Assembly (NCBI GenBank): GCA_016203305.1
Contig: JACQMY010000035.1
Span: 64,574 to 112,799 of the forward strand
Source of the DNA: Candidatus Woesearchaeota archaeon
Lineage (GTDB): Archaea; Nanobdellota; Nanobdellia; Woesearchaeales; ARS49
Reading direction: 5' to 3'
Length of the DNA stretch: 48,226 bases
Shown: positions 18,829 through 31,046 of the stretch, piece by piece
How the letters are laid out: each line of letters opens with the position of its first letter
Numbering within the stretch: the stretch's first letter is position 1
Notes under the pieces: generated by a model
Seen by the model: only the letters and a program-made list of their open reading frames with translations
Told to the model about the DNA's origin: nothing
The model's database searches: none
Program-made: the position numbers and the translations under genes

Positions 18829-19965
18829 TTGACCCCACAAACGGCAAAACCAATGGAAGAACCACCCTGCCCCTACTTCGGAACGTGCGGAGGCTGCACA
18901 AGCCAACACATAGAATACGAAGAACAAGTAAAGAAGAAAACAGAATTTGTGCAAAAACTATTCCCAAAAGTCCCAATCAGAACAACCTTCGACCAGCCAT
19001 ACCACTATCGAAACAGAATGGATTTTACATTCACCAAAAAAGGAATTGGCCTACGAGAAAAAGGAAGCTGGGAAAAACTTTTGCCAATCGAACAATGCCC
19101 GATAAGCAACGAGCAACTAAACACGCGCCTGGCAGAAGTACAACAATGGACAAAAAACAATCCAGTTAACCCATTCGACGTTGTAACGCAAACAGGAACG
19201 CTCAAGTACGTAGTCATCCGTACACCAAGGAACACCAACAGCATCACTTTCATCCTAAACAAAGAATCACCAAACATGGAAGAACAGATAATGCTGATCA
19301 AAAAATTTGCAGAAACGACAACCGCAAAAAACATTCTCATAGGAACAATCGGAGCAAAAACAGACATGAGCATCAGCGAAGAACTTACAGTCATCAAAGG
19401 AGACGAAATGCTCTCAGAAACACTATGCAACAAAACAATAACCTACCACAGCCAAGCATTCTTCCAGAACAACACCAAAATGGCAGAGAAAATGATCGAA
19501 CACGTAAAGGAACTGGCCATTGGCAATTCGCAATTAGATGTTCGTAAGACTCTTGTCGACCTATACGGCGGAGCAGGCACATTTGGAATCTGTCTAGCTG
19601 ACCGGTTTGACAAAACCATCATTATCGACAACAGCAAGCAAAACATAACTTGTGCGCAACAAAACATAGTTGCAAACAAACTGACAAACACCTTTGCCAT
19701 CTGCGCAGACGCAAAAGCACTCGCAGACCATACAGAAGAAATCACGCTAATCGTCGACCCGCCACGTGCTGGACTGCATCCAAAAGTCATCAAAACAATA
19801 AACCAACTAAAGCCAAAGACAATCATCTACATCTCCTGCAATCCAAAACAAATGGCACAAGACATCGCACGGTTAACAGAGTACAAAATTGATTCGCTGG
19901 CTGTTTTTGACCTATTTCCGCAGACAGAGCATGTTGAAGCAGTGGCGAAGCTCACCTCTGACTGA
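18829..19965 (+). CDS. TrmA/RlmD-family (uracil-5-)-methyltransferase
   Basis: CPYFGTCGGCTSQHI Fe-S cysteines, DLYGGAGTFGICLA, DPPRAGLHPKVI, IYISCNPKQMAQDI. Confidence 0.9.
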   Translation: MTPQTAKPMEEPPCPYFGTCGGCTSQHIEYEEQVKKKTEFVQKLFPKVPIRTTFDQPYHYRNRMDFTFTKKGIGLREKGSWEKLLPIEQCPISNEQLNTRLAEVQQWTKNNPVNPFDVVTQTGTLKYVVIRTPRNTNSITFILNKESPNMEEQIMLIKKFAETTTAKNILIGTIGAKTDMSISEELTVIKGDEMLSETLCNKTITYHSQAFFQNNTKMAEKMIEHVKELAIGNSQLDVRKTLVDLYGGAGTFGICLADRFDKTIIIDNSKQNITCAQQNIVANKLTNTFAICADAKALADHTEEITLIVDPPRAGLHPKVIKTINQLKPKTIIYISCNPKQMAQDIARLTEYKIDSLAVFDLFPQTEHVEAVAKLTSD

Positions 19966-20473
19966 GAATGTAGTGCATTGCCTCCGCGACATTCGGAACA
20001 ACAACTTCTGGTTTACTTTTTCCTGCACGCGATCCAACGTAGACTGTTCTTGTTCCAGCACGCTGCCCTGCAATTATATCAGAATCCTGATCACCAACCA
20101 TAAAGCTCTGCTCCAAACACACTTCCAAATCCTTCGCTGCACGCAACAAAAGCTCAGGAGAAGGCTTACGACAAGAACAACCATCCTCCTCACGATGCGG
20201 ACAATAATAACAACCGTCAATACGCGCACCATACTCAACTGCTTTGCCGCAAATCGTCTCAAAAACTGCATCAACTTCCTCTTTTGTCATCTCGCCCTTC
20301 CCAATCCATGACTGATTGCTCACAACACATAACGCATAGGGCGCTCCACTCAACAATCGAAATGCCTCAACCGCCTCTGGAAGCAGTTCCGCCTTTGGAG
20401 GCCTCGGATACATCGAGTTATCAACCAACACACCATCCTTATCGAAGAGTATTGCACGTCTCACGTTTCCCAC
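19952..20473 (-). CDS. HAD-family phosphatase (GmhB/histidinol-phosphatase-like)
   Basis: AILFDKDGVLVDN, VVSNQSWIGKGEMT, CYYCPHREEDGCSCRKPSPELLLRAA, MVGDQDSDIIAGQRAGT. Confidence 0.85.
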   Translation of the reverse strand: MGNVRRAILFDKDGVLVDNSMYPRPPKAELLPEAVEAFRLLSGAPYALCVVSNQSWIGKGEMTKEEVDAVFETICGKAVEYGARIDGCYYCPHREEDGCSCRKPSPELLLRAAKDLEVCLEQSFMVGDQDSDIIAGQRAGTRTVYVGSRAGKSKPEVVVPNVAEAMHYILSQR

Positions 20474-21060
20474 CTCCTTATCTCATCCTGCAACATCTCA
20501 AACGCGTACTTGCACATCTCCTGCAATTGCCTCCCTGCTTTATCAAAACATCTGAAATCAACTGCTTGCATTGCACGATGCGCATCATCCATGATCGGAA
20601 GGAAAACATCACGCGTCCAGTCCAAACTATTTTCCTTAATTCTCCTAGATCCAGTCATCATGTTGTCAAACAAGTCAGCCAGCTTAATCAAACACGCTTC
20701 CTCACCAGCAGCAAGCAGTTGCGCATGATATTTCTTTCTAGGCGGATGCTCCTCATCAACAGGCTTGGTCAAAGCTTTCACCCACTCAACAGTCAAAGGC
20801 TTGCAATACTTCAGCAACTCCCTCTCTGTTAATGATGTATCCTCAAGAGAATCGTGCGCGAGTGCTGCCTTTGCGAGCTCTTGCAGATCACACCGCTCAC
20901 CATTCATTTCAACGGCGTGCACAACCAAGTGCGCAACACGATGCAGGTGATGCTTATACGGAATACCGCCCTTATACTCCTGGCCATGATGAGCACGCTC
21001 AATCATAGCTACAAATTCACGGTCCACGGTACGCACCTCTGATGTCCATCGCGATGTCAT
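20461..21060 (-). CDS. HD-domain hydrolase, SpoT/MESH1-like
   Basis: YKHHLHRVAHLV...ALAHDSLEDTSLTERELL...ACLIKLADLFDNMMTG; GTG with GAGGTG SD at about 21027 is an alternative start. Confidence 0.75.
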   Translation of the reverse strand: MTSRWTSEVRTVDREFVAMIERAHHGQEYKGGIPYKHHLHRVAHLVVHAVEMNGERCDLQELAKAALAHDSLEDTSLTERELLKYCKPLTVEWVKALTKPVDEEHPPRKKYHAQLLAAGEEACLIKLADLFDNMMTGSRRIKENSLDWTRDVFLPIMDDAHRAMQAVDFRCFDKAGRQLQEMCKYAFEMLQDEIRRWET

Positions 21061-21709
21061 CCAGCCTTTTTTGCACGATCTCAGGACTAGGACGAGCATC
21101 CACCCTTATTACCTTTGTTCTTTCAAACAAAGCAGGAGGCTTCGCAAAAAACTCATCATACGCACCTTCAAGCTTCTTGAGAAACTCGGTAAATTCCCAT
21201 TTGTCCTCCTTCTTAATACGACCCAATGCACGCTCAGTCTCGCACTCCATATAAACGATAAGGTGCGGTGCGACAAACCGCCCAGCATAAGGTTTGTCCT
21301 CCATTGGCAACTCCCGCCAGTTCAGCAACGTATCACATTCCCTACGAGAGAAACCCTCGGCTGCGAGAAACGTATAAAAATCAATCACTCCCCGCTGTGA
21401 GACAAGAGCATCATGATCAACCCACCATTTCCGCAACAAATACTGCTCGGCACGATGGCTTGTTGCAAAGGTCACTGCATCACTATACGCATCCTTCCCT
21501 TGCTGGTCCTTGCCAAACAAAGCCATCATAGAGCGCACCCAGTCATAATGCGGACTCTTCCAATACTTCGACCTTGGAGCAAGACGAGCAGCCAAGTATT
21601 GCGCGCCGGTTGTCTTACCACAACCGTCCACCCCAGTCATGCAAACCCACAATTTGTTATCATCCACGCCCTGCAATTCCAAGCGTGGAGCCTTTGTTGT
21701 TTCTGTCAT
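21017..21709 (-). CDS. Thymidylate kinase-like NMP kinase (P-loop)
   Basis: MTGVDGCGKTTGAQYLAARL Walker A; DFYTFLAAEGFSRRE; SD GAGGTGG before ATG. Confidence 0.7.
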   Translation of the reverse strand: MTETTKAPRLELQGVDDNKLWVCMTGVDGCGKTTGAQYLAARLAPRSKYWKSPHYDWVRSMMALFGKDQQGKDAYSDAVTFATSHRAEQYLLRKWWVDHDALVSQRGVIDFYTFLAAEGFSRRECDTLLNWRELPMEDKPYAGRFVAPHLIVYMECETERALGRIKKEDKWEFTEFLKKLEGAYDEFFAKPPALFERTKVIRVDARPSPEIVQKRLDDIAMDIRGAYRGP

Positions 21710-21728
21710 TGGTCCACCTCACTACTTT

Positions 21729-22010
21729 TCACGATATCCTATACAGTCGAAACGCGTACGCATCTTCAGGAAGTGTGAATTCCTGAGGGCGAACATCGCT
21801 CGCTGTCTGAATGCGCTCAAACGCGTTTGGCCGCAAACTCCTGTACTTCTGTGCCGCGTTTCTAATTTCATAATCGGGGCCGGCAAGTTCAGACGCGATC
21901 GCCTTGCACAAGGGCCCAACAGGCACTGCAACGCGTAAAGGTCGCGGGTTGTCTTTTCTGACAAACCCTTGCGTCTCATCATTCCAAACAATTTCTTGAA
22001 GTTTGTTCAC
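21729..22010 (-). CDS. Small uncharacterised protein (93 aa)
   Basis: GTG start preceded by strong SD AAGGAGGTGA overlapping the upstream stop; collinear with downstream operon. Confidence 0.6.
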   Translation of the reverse strand: MNKLQEIVWNDETQGFVRKDNPRPLRVAVPVGPLCKAIASELAGPDYEIRNAAQKYRSLRPNAFERIQTASDVRPQEFTLPEDAYAFRLYRIS

Positions 22011-22022
22011 GCTCTCACCTCC

Positions 22023-22145
22023 TTAAACGAAAGCCAGCAAGCTCCCGTTGCGCTCGTCCATCCATCTTCGCTTCCTGATGAATTCCTGCTCTACAAAGTC
22101 CCAAACCATTTCTTCTTTCCACATGCGTATCACCTCGTTTTTCAT
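22023..22145 (-). CDS. Very small ORF (about 40 aa) at head of the operon
   Basis: MKNEVIRMWKEEMVWDFVEQEFIRKRRWMDERNGSLLAFV; lies just downstream of TATA and duplicated palindrome. Confidence 0.5.
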   Translation of the reverse strand: MKNEVIRMWKEEMVWDFVEQEFIRKRRWMDERNGSLLAFV

Positions 22146-22156
22146 ACTCAACGTAT

Positions 22157-22212
22157 AGTGTTGTAGAAAACAAAATTCTTCCTGCACCAAAACATACAAC
22201 AGTGTTGTAGAA
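22157..22212. promoter_or_regulatory. Duplicated operator AGTGTTGTAGAA / palindrome GTGTTGTAGAACAC
   Basis: Copies at 22157-22168 and 22201-22212; the second is a perfect inverted repeat GTGTT-GTAG-AACAC; TATATAT just upstream on the minus strand (about 22223-22232). Confidence 0.6.
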
Positions 22213-22249
22213 CACGCAAAAACATATATAGACCTCGGCTTCATTTGGA

Positions 22250-22325: not shown

Positions 22326-23195
22326 ATGTTAACAAAAGATGCTGAGAAAAAAATACTCAACTACGTTTACACACAGCCACGCACGATACAAGAAATCTCC
22401 AAACACCTAGGCAAAAACTGGAGAACAGCAGATTCCTACGTCGACAAAATCATCAAGGAATCTGGCTCGCTGGCAGTAAGAACTTTCAGAGAAGGAACAA
22501 GAGGGGCATTGAAGCTCGTCTATTGGAACAACACAGAACGCATACACAACACAGAATTCCAAGAACGATTGTTCAAACGCATAGAAAGCGGCAGAAGAAA
22601 ACACGACTTCTCACCACTAGACATATACAACTATGTTCCAGAAAACAAACGAAGCGCAAGATGCGGCAGCTACACAGTAAGCAACGAACTATTCAACCAA
22701 GACCTGGTAAGCTTCCTCAAAAGCGCAAAAAAACACGTACTAATATACACGGGCAACTGCAGCTTCGTCAATTTGTATGAAAACGGCACCAACATCCTGA
22801 ACATATTCCAAGAACTGGCAGAAAGGGGAGTGAGCATCAAAGTCCTAACACGAGTAGACTTCAGCAGCCTGAAAAACCTGCAAAAACTGCTGGCAATAAA
22901 CTACAGCATAGGAAAAGAAACAGTAGAAATCAAACACTGCGAACAACCATTAAGAGGATTTCTCGTTGATGAAACATCGCTGCGATTAAAAGAAAGCCTA
23001 GACCCAAGCCTATACTGCAAAGGAGAACTGCCACCAGACATGAATGTCATATTGTACGACATCAGAGACTCAGACTGGGTCAAATGGGGAAAAGACGTCT
23101 TCTACACACTATTCAGAACAAGCATTGCAGGACAAAAAAGACTACAAGACTTAAGAAGCATAGCAAAACAAGACATGCACGCAACACTACACTAG
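22326..23195 (+). CDS. wHTH + PLD-like (TrmB-type) predicted transcription regulator
   Basis: KKILNYVYTQPRTIQEISKHLGKNWRTADSYVDKII wHTH; HVLIYTGNCSF...LAERGVSIKVLTRVD PLD/TrmB effector-like. Confidence 0.6.
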   Translation: MLTKDAEKKILNYVYTQPRTIQEISKHLGKNWRTADSYVDKIIKESGSLAVRTFREGTRGALKLVYWNNTERIHNTEFQERLFKRIESGRRKHDFSPLDIYNYVPENKRSARCGSYTVSNELFNQDLVSFLKSAKKHVLIYTGNCSFVNLYENGTNILNIFQELAERGVSIKVLTRVDFSSLKNLQKLLAINYSIGKETVEIKHCEQPLRGFLVDETSLRLKESLDPSLYCKGELPPDMNVILYDIRDSDWVKWGKDVFYTLFRTSIAGQKRLQDLRSIAKQDMHATLH

Positions 23196-23217: not shown

Positions 23218-23895
23218 ATGGCAAAACTCATCCTCAGCGGCGGCGGAAATCCAGACGATGAAAAACCACTTCACATGCTCCTACGCAAAGAGATGACAAA
23301 CAAACGACTACTCTACATCCCGCTTCACTGGAAAAACGCAGACTTTGAAAGCTGCCATGAATGGATAACCCCTATTTTCCCAACGCTCTCAATCGAAATG
23401 TGGACCAGCCTTGAGAAAAAAACCTATGAAGACCTAGCCACATTCGGAGGAATATTCCTCGGAGGAGGAAACACATTCGTACTCCTCAATGCATTCCAAA
23501 AAACAGGATTCCACCACCCTCTATTGCGGTTCATCAACAGCGAAAGACCTGTATTTGGTGGCAGCGCAGGAGCAATCATACTTGGCAAAGACATCAGAAC
23601 AGCAGCGTTCGGCGAAGACTCTGACGAAAACACCCCAAACATAACAAACTTCAACGGGCTCAACCAAGTAAACGGCTACGCCCTACAATGCCATTATAAC
23701 GCTGACCAAGATACTGAGCTGGAAGAATTCGCACGACAAACAGGAATCCCAATCCTGGCACTATCAGAAAAAACCGGAATATTCGTCCACAATGGAACCA
23801 TCACAGTCAAAGGAACACAACCCGCGGCAACATTCACTCCTGAAAAGAAACTCGTTCCAGTAGAAAGTCAAATCACAAAAGAAATAGTTTTATAA
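23218..23895 (+). CDS. Peptidase S51 family (PepE/cyanophycinase-like)
   Basis: LILSGGGN, GGIFLGGGNTFVLL, FGGSAGAIILG nucleophile elbow. Confidence 0.85.
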   Translation: MAKLILSGGGNPDDEKPLHMLLRKEMTNKRLLYIPLHWKNADFESCHEWITPIFPTLSIEMWTSLEKKTYEDLATFGGIFLGGGNTFVLLNAFQKTGFHHPLLRFINSERPVFGGSAGAIILGKDIRTAAFGEDSDENTPNITNFNGLNQVNGYALQCHYNADQDTELEEFARQTGIPILALSEKTGIFVHNGTITVKGTQPAATFTPEKKLVPVESQITKEIVL

Positions 23896-23917
23896 AACAC
23901 AGAACCAACTCAAACAT

Positions 23918-24022
23918 ATGTCATTAGAAACCGAGTTCATCGTCATGATAGGACTACTCACAATGTTCTCAATCGTGGCAATAATTCTAAAGACGTTAAG
24001 ATCAAAGATATTCAGCATTTAG
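23918..24022 (+). CDS. Small single-TM protein (34 aa), absent from the ORF track
   Basis: ATG at 23918: MSLETEFIVMIGLLTMFSIVAIILKTLRSKIFSI*; TATA-like TTTTATAAA about 25 nt upstream. Confidence 0.45.
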   Translation: MSLETEFIVMIGLLTMFSIVAIILKTLRSKIFSI

Positions 24023-24090
24023 TGTTGTAGTTAGTGGTGTGTAGTCTATGACTGTTTTCTGCAAACTACTGACCACACACTGGCCCCTCG

Positions 24091-24597
24091 TTAAGGAATC
24101 CGTCTTAAATGCTTAACCCGCCAGTCATCCTTTATTTCCTTGGGTTTTTCCTGCTCGACTGGCTTGGGTTTTTCCTTCTCGAAAACACCAACACTCTTTG
24201 ATTGCTCCTTGATTAATAACTCTGCCTTTGCCAAGTCCTCATCAGATGCTGGTTTGGGATTCCAACCAAGCTGCAACTTATCATTCTCAAAACGCGGCAC
24301 AACATGAAGCATTGCATGATTGTGCTGCTGGCCAGCAGGAGGTCCATTTTGAATCAAAACATTAGTGCCCTGCGCGCCAACACTCTCAAACAAAACAGTG
24401 CTAACCTTGTTAGCAGCCTTGAACATATCAGCAACAACAGCATCTGGCACAGTCTCCAAAATAGGACTATGATGTTTCGGTAAAACAATGACGTGACCTT
24501 GAACAAAAGGCTCGGGAGAAAGCATAACAAAGACTTTATCGTCCTCATACAACGCGTTCGCCCTCTTCTGAACCAACTCACAAAAAACGCAAGTCAT
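24091..24597 (-). CDS. HIT-family protein 2, His-triad middle residue is Met
   Basis: CVFCELVQKRANALYEDDKVFVML...GHVIVLPKHH...GQQHNHAMLHVVPR. Confidence 0.85.
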   Translation of the reverse strand: MTCVFCELVQKRANALYEDDKVFVMLSPEPFVQGHVIVLPKHHSPILETVPDAVVADMFKAANKVSTVLFESVGAQGTNVLIQNGPPAGQQHNHAMLHVVPRFENDKLQLGWNPKPASDEDLAKAELLIKEQSKSVGVFEKEKPKPVEQEKPKEIKDDWRVKHLRRIP

Positions 24598-25211
24598 TTG
24601 CCACCTGTCAACAAGTCCATGATGGCATCAAGTTTTGACTTGGGCTGTTGACCATTGGCTGTTGGCTTTTGGCCTTTGGCTGTTGGCTCTTGGCCGGTAT
24701 CAGTTGGTAGTGTGTGGTTTGTAGTTTGTAGTTTGTCGTCTTTTGGTTCTTTCTTTGCCTCTGGCTTCGGAGGCTCCTTGCCGAAAGCCTTCGCAACAGA
24801 AGGAACGAGCTTCGAATACAATGCACCCATAGACTTCTCATCAAGACGAACAACAGAAGGCTGCAAAGCAACACCATCCTTCTCCTTGCGAGGCATAACG
24901 TGAAGCATGAAGTGAGGCGCACGCTGGCCAGCAGAAGCGCCATTCGCGACAAAAACAGAGGTGCCTTCACACTTGAAAGCTCGAATAATGGCTTGAGACA
25001 ATTGCTTGGCAACCATGCCAACATGCCCAACAAGAACATCATCCATCTGAGGCATGACAACAACGTGCTTCTTCGTCAAAACAAGAACATGACCCTCAAC
25101 ACCAGGATTAATATCAAGAACAGCAACAACCTGATCGTCCTCATAAACCTTCTTGGTAGGAATCTTACCATTCGCAATATGACAAAAAATACACTGCTCT
25201 TCATCAGCCAT
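24594..25211 (-). CDS. HIT-family protein 1 with repeat-derived tail; His-triad middle residue is Met
   Basis: CIFCHIANGKIPTKKVYEDDQVVAVLDINPGVEGHVLVLTKKH...AGQRAPHFMLHVMPR; tail KLQTTNHTLPTDTGQEPTAKGQKPTANGQQP. Confidence 0.88.
   Translation of the reverse strand: MADEEQCIFCHIANGKIPTKKVYEDDQVVAVLDINPGVEGHVLVLTKKHVVVMPQMDDVLVGHVGMVAKQLSQAIIRAFKCEGTSVFVANGASAGQRAPHFMLHVMPRKEKDGVALQPSVVRLDEKSMGALYSKLVPSVAKAFGKEPPKPEAKKEPKDDKLQTTNHTLPTDTGQEPTAKGQKPTANGQQPKSKLDAIMDLLTGGK
24641..24740 (+). repeat. Heptanucleotide array inside HIT gene 1 (antisense)
   Basis: ttggctgttggcttttggcctttggctgttggctcttggcc...ggtttgtagtttgtagtttgtcg. Confidence 0.9.
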
Positions 25212-25594
25212 AAGAACTTTATAACCCAAAGAATATTAAAAGGTGTCGGAAGCGTGAGCAGTAAGCCTGGCTTCCTCATTTCTCGCCAGACGAAAATACC
25301 TCGCAAGATAAGATGCGGCACGTGATTGATCCCTCTCTAGAATGTCCAAACCATCCCCAACAATCCCTAACACTCTGCTGCCCACTCAAGATTACCGCCC
25401 CTTTCAACCAATAAATTCACCCGCTCCTGGACAGCGTTGTAAAAAAATTGCTTCCTCGCATCACGGCAATGCAAGTCCAGACTGTACAAAAAACGTACTG
25501 CACACTCTCCCATGCTCAAACACTCATCCATGCAGCCAGGCCACACCAAAAAGTATATAAATGCTATCCCTTTAAAAACATAAAAAGAAGGTGT

Positions 25595-30092: not shown

Positions 30093-31046
30093 TGTGTTAT
30101 CCCGTTAGTTTTTCTTCTCGATGATTTAAGTCTTGTCATGTTTTTACCTCATTTTGCGCTGGAACGCCTGCCATGGCGTTTCCAGCTCATCGAAGTTTAA
30201 GCTCATGTGGGGTCTGATATGGTTGTACCAGTGTTGGTATGCTTCCGCTGTTGGGAAGGAGTCTCTGTGTCGTTCGTAGGTGTAGAACGAGCGTTCTACT
30301 TTGCCGTTTGATTGGGGATGTTTGATCCGGCAAAGTATTTGTTTGATGCCGTTGTCGTCGAGGAATTTCTTGAAGTTGTTCTCTCCCCCATTGTTGCTGG
30401 TGAACTGGCTTCCGTGGTCGCTTATGCATTCCTTGATTGGGCCGTATTTGAGGGCTTCTTTCATGCCCTCAATGCTTGCTTCTTGTGTTGGGCTGTCGCG
30501 TTCAAGGATTGCGAGCAGTGCTCTGCTCGCGTCGTCGAGTACTTTGAAGACCCAAATACCATCGTTTGGACGTTGGTGCCAGTCGATGTGTACTGCGGTT
30601 AAGCTGTGCCTTCGTTCGTAGCGAATCCAGTTTTTCTTTCGCACCACTGTTTTGTCTCCTTTCTTGGCAAGGCCCTCGCATAACAAGATTTTGTGAATCT
30701 TGTTATGCGGGATGTGTGTTTGGTAGTCTCGGAAAATAAGCTTTTCCAAAGGCGCGGCAGAAACTTTGTATTGTTCGTGCACCTTTTTCACGACGTGAAC
30801 CTCGGCCTGCGTGATTGACTTTGTAGGCGGCCCCATGCGGGCGCCTACAACAGGGATTTCTCCTGTTCGCTGGTACTCGCTCCAGATCTGATCAACCCTT
30901 CGTTGACTCACTCCTGCCTCTTTTCGTGCTTGGTAGCTGCTCATGCCCTTGTTCTTTTTCTCAAGAATCCTCAGGATCTTTGTTTTGTTCAGCTTCATAC
31001 GAAGCGAACAATCCATATCCTGAGGAAATACTTGTGGGATAACACA
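30093..31046 (-). mobile_element. IS481-like insertion sequence, 954 bp, intact
   Basis: Terminal IR TGTGTTATCCC plus further matches (20/25); 15-bp direct repeat CCATAGGATGGAGAC at 30078-30092 and 31047-31061. Confidence 0.93.
30144..31016 (-). CDS. IS481-like DDE transposase
   Basis: HTH N-terminus; AVHIDWHQ..., ISDHGSQFTSNNG, HPQSNGKVERSFYTYE, WYNHIRPHMSL. Confidence 0.93.
   Translation of the reverse strand: MDCSLRMKLNKTKILRILEKKNKGMSSYQARKEAGVSQRRVDQIWSEYQRTGEIPVVGARMGPPTKSITQAEVHVVKKVHEQYKVSAAPLEKLIFRDYQTHIPHNKIHKILLCEGLAKKGDKTVVRKKNWIRYERRHSLTAVHIDWHQRPNDGIWVFKVLDDASRALLAILERDSPTQEASIEGMKEALKYGPIKECISDHGSQFTSNNGGENNFKKFLDDNGIKQILCRIKHPQSNGKVERSFYTYERHRDSFPTAEAYQHWYNHIRPHMSLNFDELETPWQAFQRKMR

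Follow-up and report, generated by a model that had tools for sequence, protein, structure and literature searches.

The window, a stretch of 48,226 nucleotides from the genome of a Candidatus Woesearchaeota archaeon, contains a minus-strand operon of five genes located between the RlmD gene (18829-19965), with which it is convergent, and a divergent gene (22326..23195, plus strand) that encodes a TrmB-like regulator of 289 amino acids with an N-terminal winged HTH and a PLD-like C-terminal domain. The first gene of the operon (22023..22124) encodes 33 amino acids behind the SD sequence GAGGTGAT, and the second (21729..22010) encodes 93 amino acids, its SD sequence AAGGAGGTGA overlying the stop codon of the first. 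Neither small protein matched any family in profile searches; in G018, one of the two nearest relatives, the corresponding position (L089:6167-6574) encodes a distant relative of the 93-aa protein. There follow a P-loop nucleoside/nucleotide kinase of the dNK/thymidylate kinase type (21017..21709, 230 aa) with the SD sequence GAGGTGG, an RSH-type HD phosphohydrolase that consists of the hydrolase domain only (20461..21027, 188 aa) and a HAD phosphatase of the GmhB/HisB-N type (19952..20464, 170 aa). The sequence-only reading of this DNA identified the three enzymes rightly, and the compact order of five open reading frames with their coupling signals, including the SD sequence over the first stop codon and that of the kinase, is as it described. 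The overlap that it proposed between the HD and HAD genes also stands, at four nucleotides (GTGA) instead of 13, with translation of the HAD phosphatase most likely starting from GTG 20464 behind AAGGAGGTGG. The start of the HD protein is most likely GTG 21027, not ATG 21099, with the SD sequence AGAGGTG and an 11-nt overlap with the kinase gene. Judged by composition, recent transfer was rejected, as the GC and GC3 of the operon resemble those of neighbouring genes. Searches of the window found no RNA families and no tRNAs. Elsewhere in the window are a peptidase S51 gene and two tandem HIT-like genes (23218-25229, 3' of the regulator), an open reading frame resembling an integrase-type transposase (30144-31016) and two coupled small open reading frames resembling a toxin-antitoxin pair (1132-1919).

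The kinase belongs to the dNK/dTMP kinase superfamily, with an intact P-loop (GVDGCGKTT) and matches to PF01712 (32.5 bits, E 9.5e-8) and PF02223 (30.9 bits, E 2.6e-7) above the gathering score of 27. It differs from known members in having SQRG where the DRY/DRS-type motif stands and in falling far under the cut-off of the dTMP kinase equivalog profile TIGR00041 (41 versus 83.25 bits). A structure model of the kinase, built from two sequences, was set aside for its low confidence (pLDDT 63). No canonical thymidylate kinase above the Pfam cut-off was found in the window genome; one is present in 17 of 26 genomes of the family, including G021 of the same genus, and eight other relatives are also without one. 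The window kinase might fill this role, a possibility that the distribution does no more than suggest. In the alignment of the HD protein, residues H51, H82-D83, E86, D142 and N146 are invariant and D87 is nearly so; thus all catalytic residues of RSH hydrolases are kept, in agreement with the SpoT-type motifs reported earlier. Among solved proteins the HD protein comes closest to small alarmone hydrolases (E 7e-8), with which, as with MESH1, it shares the catalytic residues of the HD domain and a single-domain length. It differs from them in its low identity, in having kinase and HAD phosphatase genes as operon partners, and in that the genome has no synthetase domain, and its scores are under the cut-offs of TIGR00691, a full-length model (32 bits, E 4e-8, versus 499 bits), and PF13328 (15.9 versus 27.2 bits). 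A second RSH-like HD protein of the same genome (PF13328; L063:6803-7387, G000:C19:24793) is encoded near dnaK/dnaJ/grpE-like genes and a methyltransferase, and in many genomes of the phylum (for example L015, L021, L024 and L026) HD matches lie in open frames about as long as complete RelA/SpoT proteins (approximately 620-755 aa). The HAD phosphatase is assigned to the HAD-IIIA histidinol-phosphatase/GmhB type by its score above the TIGR01656 subfamily cut-off (118.2 versus 84.15 bits), its DxD motif (FDKDG) and its Cys/His zinc motif (CPHREEDGCSC), features that it shares with GmhB and HisB-N. It differs from these in being below the GmhB cut-offs (118 versus 178 bits for NF006506; 94 versus 149.6 bits for TIGR00213), and HAD phosphatases of its type are encoded in regulator-facing operons of three families.

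Among the genomes searched, the trio of kinase, HD and HAD genes was found only in the window genome, and the five-gene cassette had no exact match in any other. Within 371 genomes of the phylum, the kinase is represented elsewhere by a lone relative with 30% identity in G034 and by weak matches, and an exact-pattern scan of GTDB contigs did not find it. The closest relatives of the HD protein (in G371 and G001, about 30% identity) adjoin neither a kinase nor a HAD gene. In G018 the prepilin peptidase, RlmD and regulator genes are kept, and the two genes that they flank are different, one encoding a CYTH protein and the other that distant relative of the 93-aa protein. The sequence-only reading put the operon itself forward as its best candidate for an undescribed gene system, to be refuted if the neighbourhood recurred in no relative; as the trio was found in just one of the genomes searched, that proposal is refuted for the trio, and the conserved part is the regulator with its twin boxes. 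A viral or plasmid origin was rejected: viral contigs yielded no relatives of the HD protein, kinase or regulator, phage records yielded none of the HD protein or kinase, and in plasmids no match to the kinase and only four weak matches to the HD protein. The HD relative in G001 (L046:5541-6868) faces a different gene, which resembles an ordinary TrmB regulator.

The regulator gene was omitted from the earlier reading, which ended at the operator. Its AF2 model is confident (pLDDT 92), and the best Foldseek match is TrmBL2 (5bpd, E 1e-8), followed by PLD-fold proteins, which places a winged HTH before a PLD-like domain as in TrmB, TrmBL1 and TrmBL2. The TM score over the whole chain is just 0.34-0.45, so the arrangement of domains may differ. 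Against Pfam, the sequence matched no TrmB model and gave only weak matches to PLDc_2, Sigma70_r4 and HTH_5; a profile search of the PDB did not match solved TrmB proteins and returned only PH1932 (E 0.03). It is therefore filed as TrmB-like, not as TrmB. TrmB regulators have sugar genes as their known neighbours, whereas this regulator, besides lying outside the Pfam TrmB models, has nucleotide enzymes as neighbours and an operator of twin boxes at 44 bp. Relatives are present at every rank examined: family (9 of 26 genomes), order (73 of 353) and phylum (85 of 343 sampled).

The intergenic region shared by the operon and the regulator gene contains two copies of TGTTGTA on the plus strand, box A (22159..22165), within the imperfect 14-bp repeat GTGTTGTAGAAAAC (22158-22171), and box B (22203..22209), located 44 bp from box A and conserved in relatives. 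Box B is the right half of a perfect palindrome, TACAACA-G-TGTTGTA (22195-22209), and also lies inside GTGTT-GTAG-AACAC (22202-22215, GTGTTGTAGAACAC). The window contains three matches to the operator repeat, of which one is an already counted site read from the opposite strand, compared to 0.30 expected by chance. The duplication of the operator claimed from the sequence holds. What relatives conserve as its core is TGTTGTA in two direct copies at a distance of 44 bp, the palindromic half being weakly conserved among them. The sequence ACATATATAG (22220..22229, plus strand) probably serves the regulator gene as its TATA element, to judge by its position 10-20 bp past box B; in relatives, a tally of positions places a TATA-like element at this distance too.

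A pair at 44 bp, one mismatch at most being allowed per box, is located upstream of 21 of 68 regulators in a set from the order and, in an independent set taken from the class's other orders, upstream of 11 of 36, a total of 32 of 104; other spacings average 0.41 and 0.16 with maxima of 5 and 2. The regulators and operons share ancestry, so that neither these counts nor those of facing genes given below are fully independent. Control upstream regions from the same loci contain the pair in 8 of 716 cases (Fisher p 6e-24), some of which proved on inspection to be genuine sites. By the same measure about two thirds of regulators are without the pair, and the nearest relatives, G018 and G004, have a single box. 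Box pairs also occur away from the regulator gene: one (L208:3515-3565) precedes a gene pair for AAA_28 and CYTH proteins, a second (L211:8327-8377) precedes a radical SAM/SPASM operon of which the radical SAM gene is 62-66% identical to regulator-facing ones, and a third (L139:3416-3466) lies between an AAA_28 operon and an operon of adenylosuccinate lyase and regulator. In G394 a 44-bp pair with a similar spacer (L206:4632-4682) and the regulator gene are separated by about 7 kb, and the gene downstream of it resembles no other facing gene.

Residue 33 of the regulator stands where the recognition helix begins, and it covaries with base five of the box: Arg33 is found with TGTTGTA in 44 of 44 cases and Val33 or Leu33 with TGTTTTA in 7 of 7, giving a mutual information of 0.58 compared to at most 0.42 in label shuffles. 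On the maximum-likelihood tree the non-Arg state requires at least two changes, and in an isolated non-Arg regulator inside an Arg clade (L092 in G009) the box is changed to match. The cases with T are few and come from essentially two lineages, and this comparison of sequences is strong support for a code between residue 33 and the box, short of proof.

The Pfam families of up to three genes facing the regulator and up to three genes downstream of it were tallied in the two sets. AAA_28 kinases account for 18 of 132 facing versus at most 1 of 148 downstream genes in one set and 11 of 71 versus at most 2 of 96 in the other (combined p 4e-8), the downstream counts being upper bounds from the 25 commonest families listed. 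Radical SAM proteins account for 22 of 203 facing versus at most 4 of 244 downstream genes (p 5e-5; 17 versus 2 and 5 versus at most 2 by set). CYTH proteins by themselves are not significantly enriched on the facing side (p 0.31) and were dropped as separate evidence. Thymidine kinase, dTMP kinase, dCTP deaminase, MazG, NUDIX, NMN adenylyltransferase, dihydroorotate dehydrogenase (DHODH) and AICARFT/IMPCHase each face the regulator in one or a few cases, and many facing genes encode non-nucleotide enzymes or other proteins (radical SAM, topoisomerase, unknowns). In G074 and G118 the facing operon begins with the gene of a HAD phosphatase 40-42% identical to that of the window, followed in each by the same protein of 227-229 aa. 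The latter proteins (L161:3721-4404, L225:3773-4462; 40% identical) belong to no known family; their motif VDGMHRSY or LDGIHRSY recalls ParB-like folds, and one has a weak match to Parb-CE. Another such family, with the motif MGGCY near its start, is encoded beside P-loop kinases in operons that face the regulator (L093:4500-5513, L139:1772-2692, L152:2747-3712, L183:3194-4249, L238:6034-7086); against Pfam, the L139 member had no match and the L093 member a weak one. Further proteins of regulator-facing operons (L218:5236-5871 and its relatives in L221, L126 and L133) have an N-terminal part of no known family; the L218 protein has a PEP-utiliser mobile domain and an adjoining thymidine kinase.

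These data bear on whether the boxes serve only for autoregulation of the regulator gene, the facing operons being chance neighbours brought there by genome shuffling. The restriction of the trio to the window genome speaks for this explanation, as does the great diversity of facing genes, of which 73 in set 1 are singletons outside any cluster. Against it stand the facing-side enrichment of AAA_28 and radical SAM proteins in both sets, box pairs away from the regulator that precede the same kinds of gene, and the recurrence of the HAD phosphatase in facing operons of three families, and it is considered rather unlikely.

The sequence-only reading had offered three functions for the operon. 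Hydrolysis of (p)ppGpp-like nucleotides or NADPH by the HD protein, in the manner of SpoT or MESH1, is in keeping with its complete set of RSH catalytic residues and its closest solved homologs, and some archaea have hydrolase-only RSH proteins and no synthetase (PMC3153485). The profile match of the HD protein is nevertheless far under the family cut-off, and the RelA_SpoT synthetase domain was not found in the window genome by a search that found it in 11 of 14 genomes as a control; a self-contained (p)ppGpp cycle is therefore unlikely in this genome, and an alarmone or NADPH phosphatase module is an unlikely function of the operon. The least probable function is that of a defence or conflict cassette, in which changeable enzymes that deplete or modify nucleotides would stand under a conserved regulator. 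In its favour, the content behind the conserved regulator does change rapidly, and PADLOC comparisons gave weak matches to VakA for the kinase (1e-6) and to pVip for some of the radical SAM neighbours. Against it, the PADLOC core proteins of known anti-phage systems gave weak partial matches only and no complete system; viperin-type partners were rejected, the radical SAM proteins scoring at least as well against maturases or MoaA as against viperin; the absence of relatives from the viral contigs and of the HD protein and kinase from the phage records gives no support; and housekeeping enzymes occur as partners (adenylosuccinate lyase, DHODH, thymidine kinase, NMN adenylyltransferase), in keeping with metabolism. 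The third function, a pathway of nucleotide modification or turnover, is retained as to turnover, which fits the wider pattern of facing genes, and not as to a conserved pairing of kinase and phosphohydrolases.

The window operon combines a dNK/TMPK-type kinase, an RSH-type HD protein and a GmhB-type HAD phosphatase, and therefore nucleotide salvage or turnover is its most likely function. The explanation preferred here is that the TrmB-like regulator and its 44-bp twin boxes control the facing operon for nucleotide salvage or turnover, the window being one version of a unit found throughout DPANN archaea; this is probably correct. For the regulator, the box pair with its exact spacing, the covariation of residue and box, the enrichment of facing enzymes and the boxes before like genes elsewhere, the support is comparative. 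The divergently encoded regulator is predicted to bind the two TGTTGTA boxes, about four helical turns apart, and so to control the operon opposite and probably also itself: box A would suit a repressor of the operon, and box B would suit an activator acting on the regulator gene, the sign of regulation being conjectural. The PLD-like domain would bind a metabolite ligand. The facing operons vary by genome, drawn from a common pool rich in nucleotide-phosphate enzymes. In the window's version, with substrates predicted from the families of the three enzymes and the company that they keep, the kinase would phosphorylate a (deoxy)nucleoside or the corresponding monophosphate, the HD enzyme would take phosphate or pyrophosphate off a nucleotide, and the HAD phosphatase would remove a phosphomonoester. 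A more specific proposal, advanced tentatively as a possibility, is that a phylum-wide family of DPANN regulators senses a nucleotide-type metabolite through the PLD-like domain and switches exchangeable nucleotide-processing modules through the 44-bp operator, the module of the window making and removing a phosphorylated nucleotide.

The open-access literature searched contained no description of the regulator/twin-box system, papers elsewhere being possible; a regulator with twin boxes and changeable operons, widespread in these tiny DPANN archaea, is apparently so far undescribed. DPANN archaea are mostly uncultured, and the symbionts among them rely on outside nucleotides; to our knowledge, little has been learned of their gene regulation. 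A regulator whose operator code can be read from one residue, Arg33 going with G and Val33 or Leu33 with T, would allow targets to be predicted from sequence alone, and the code may offer a route to finding which metabolite controls the nucleotide enzymes of DPANN cells.
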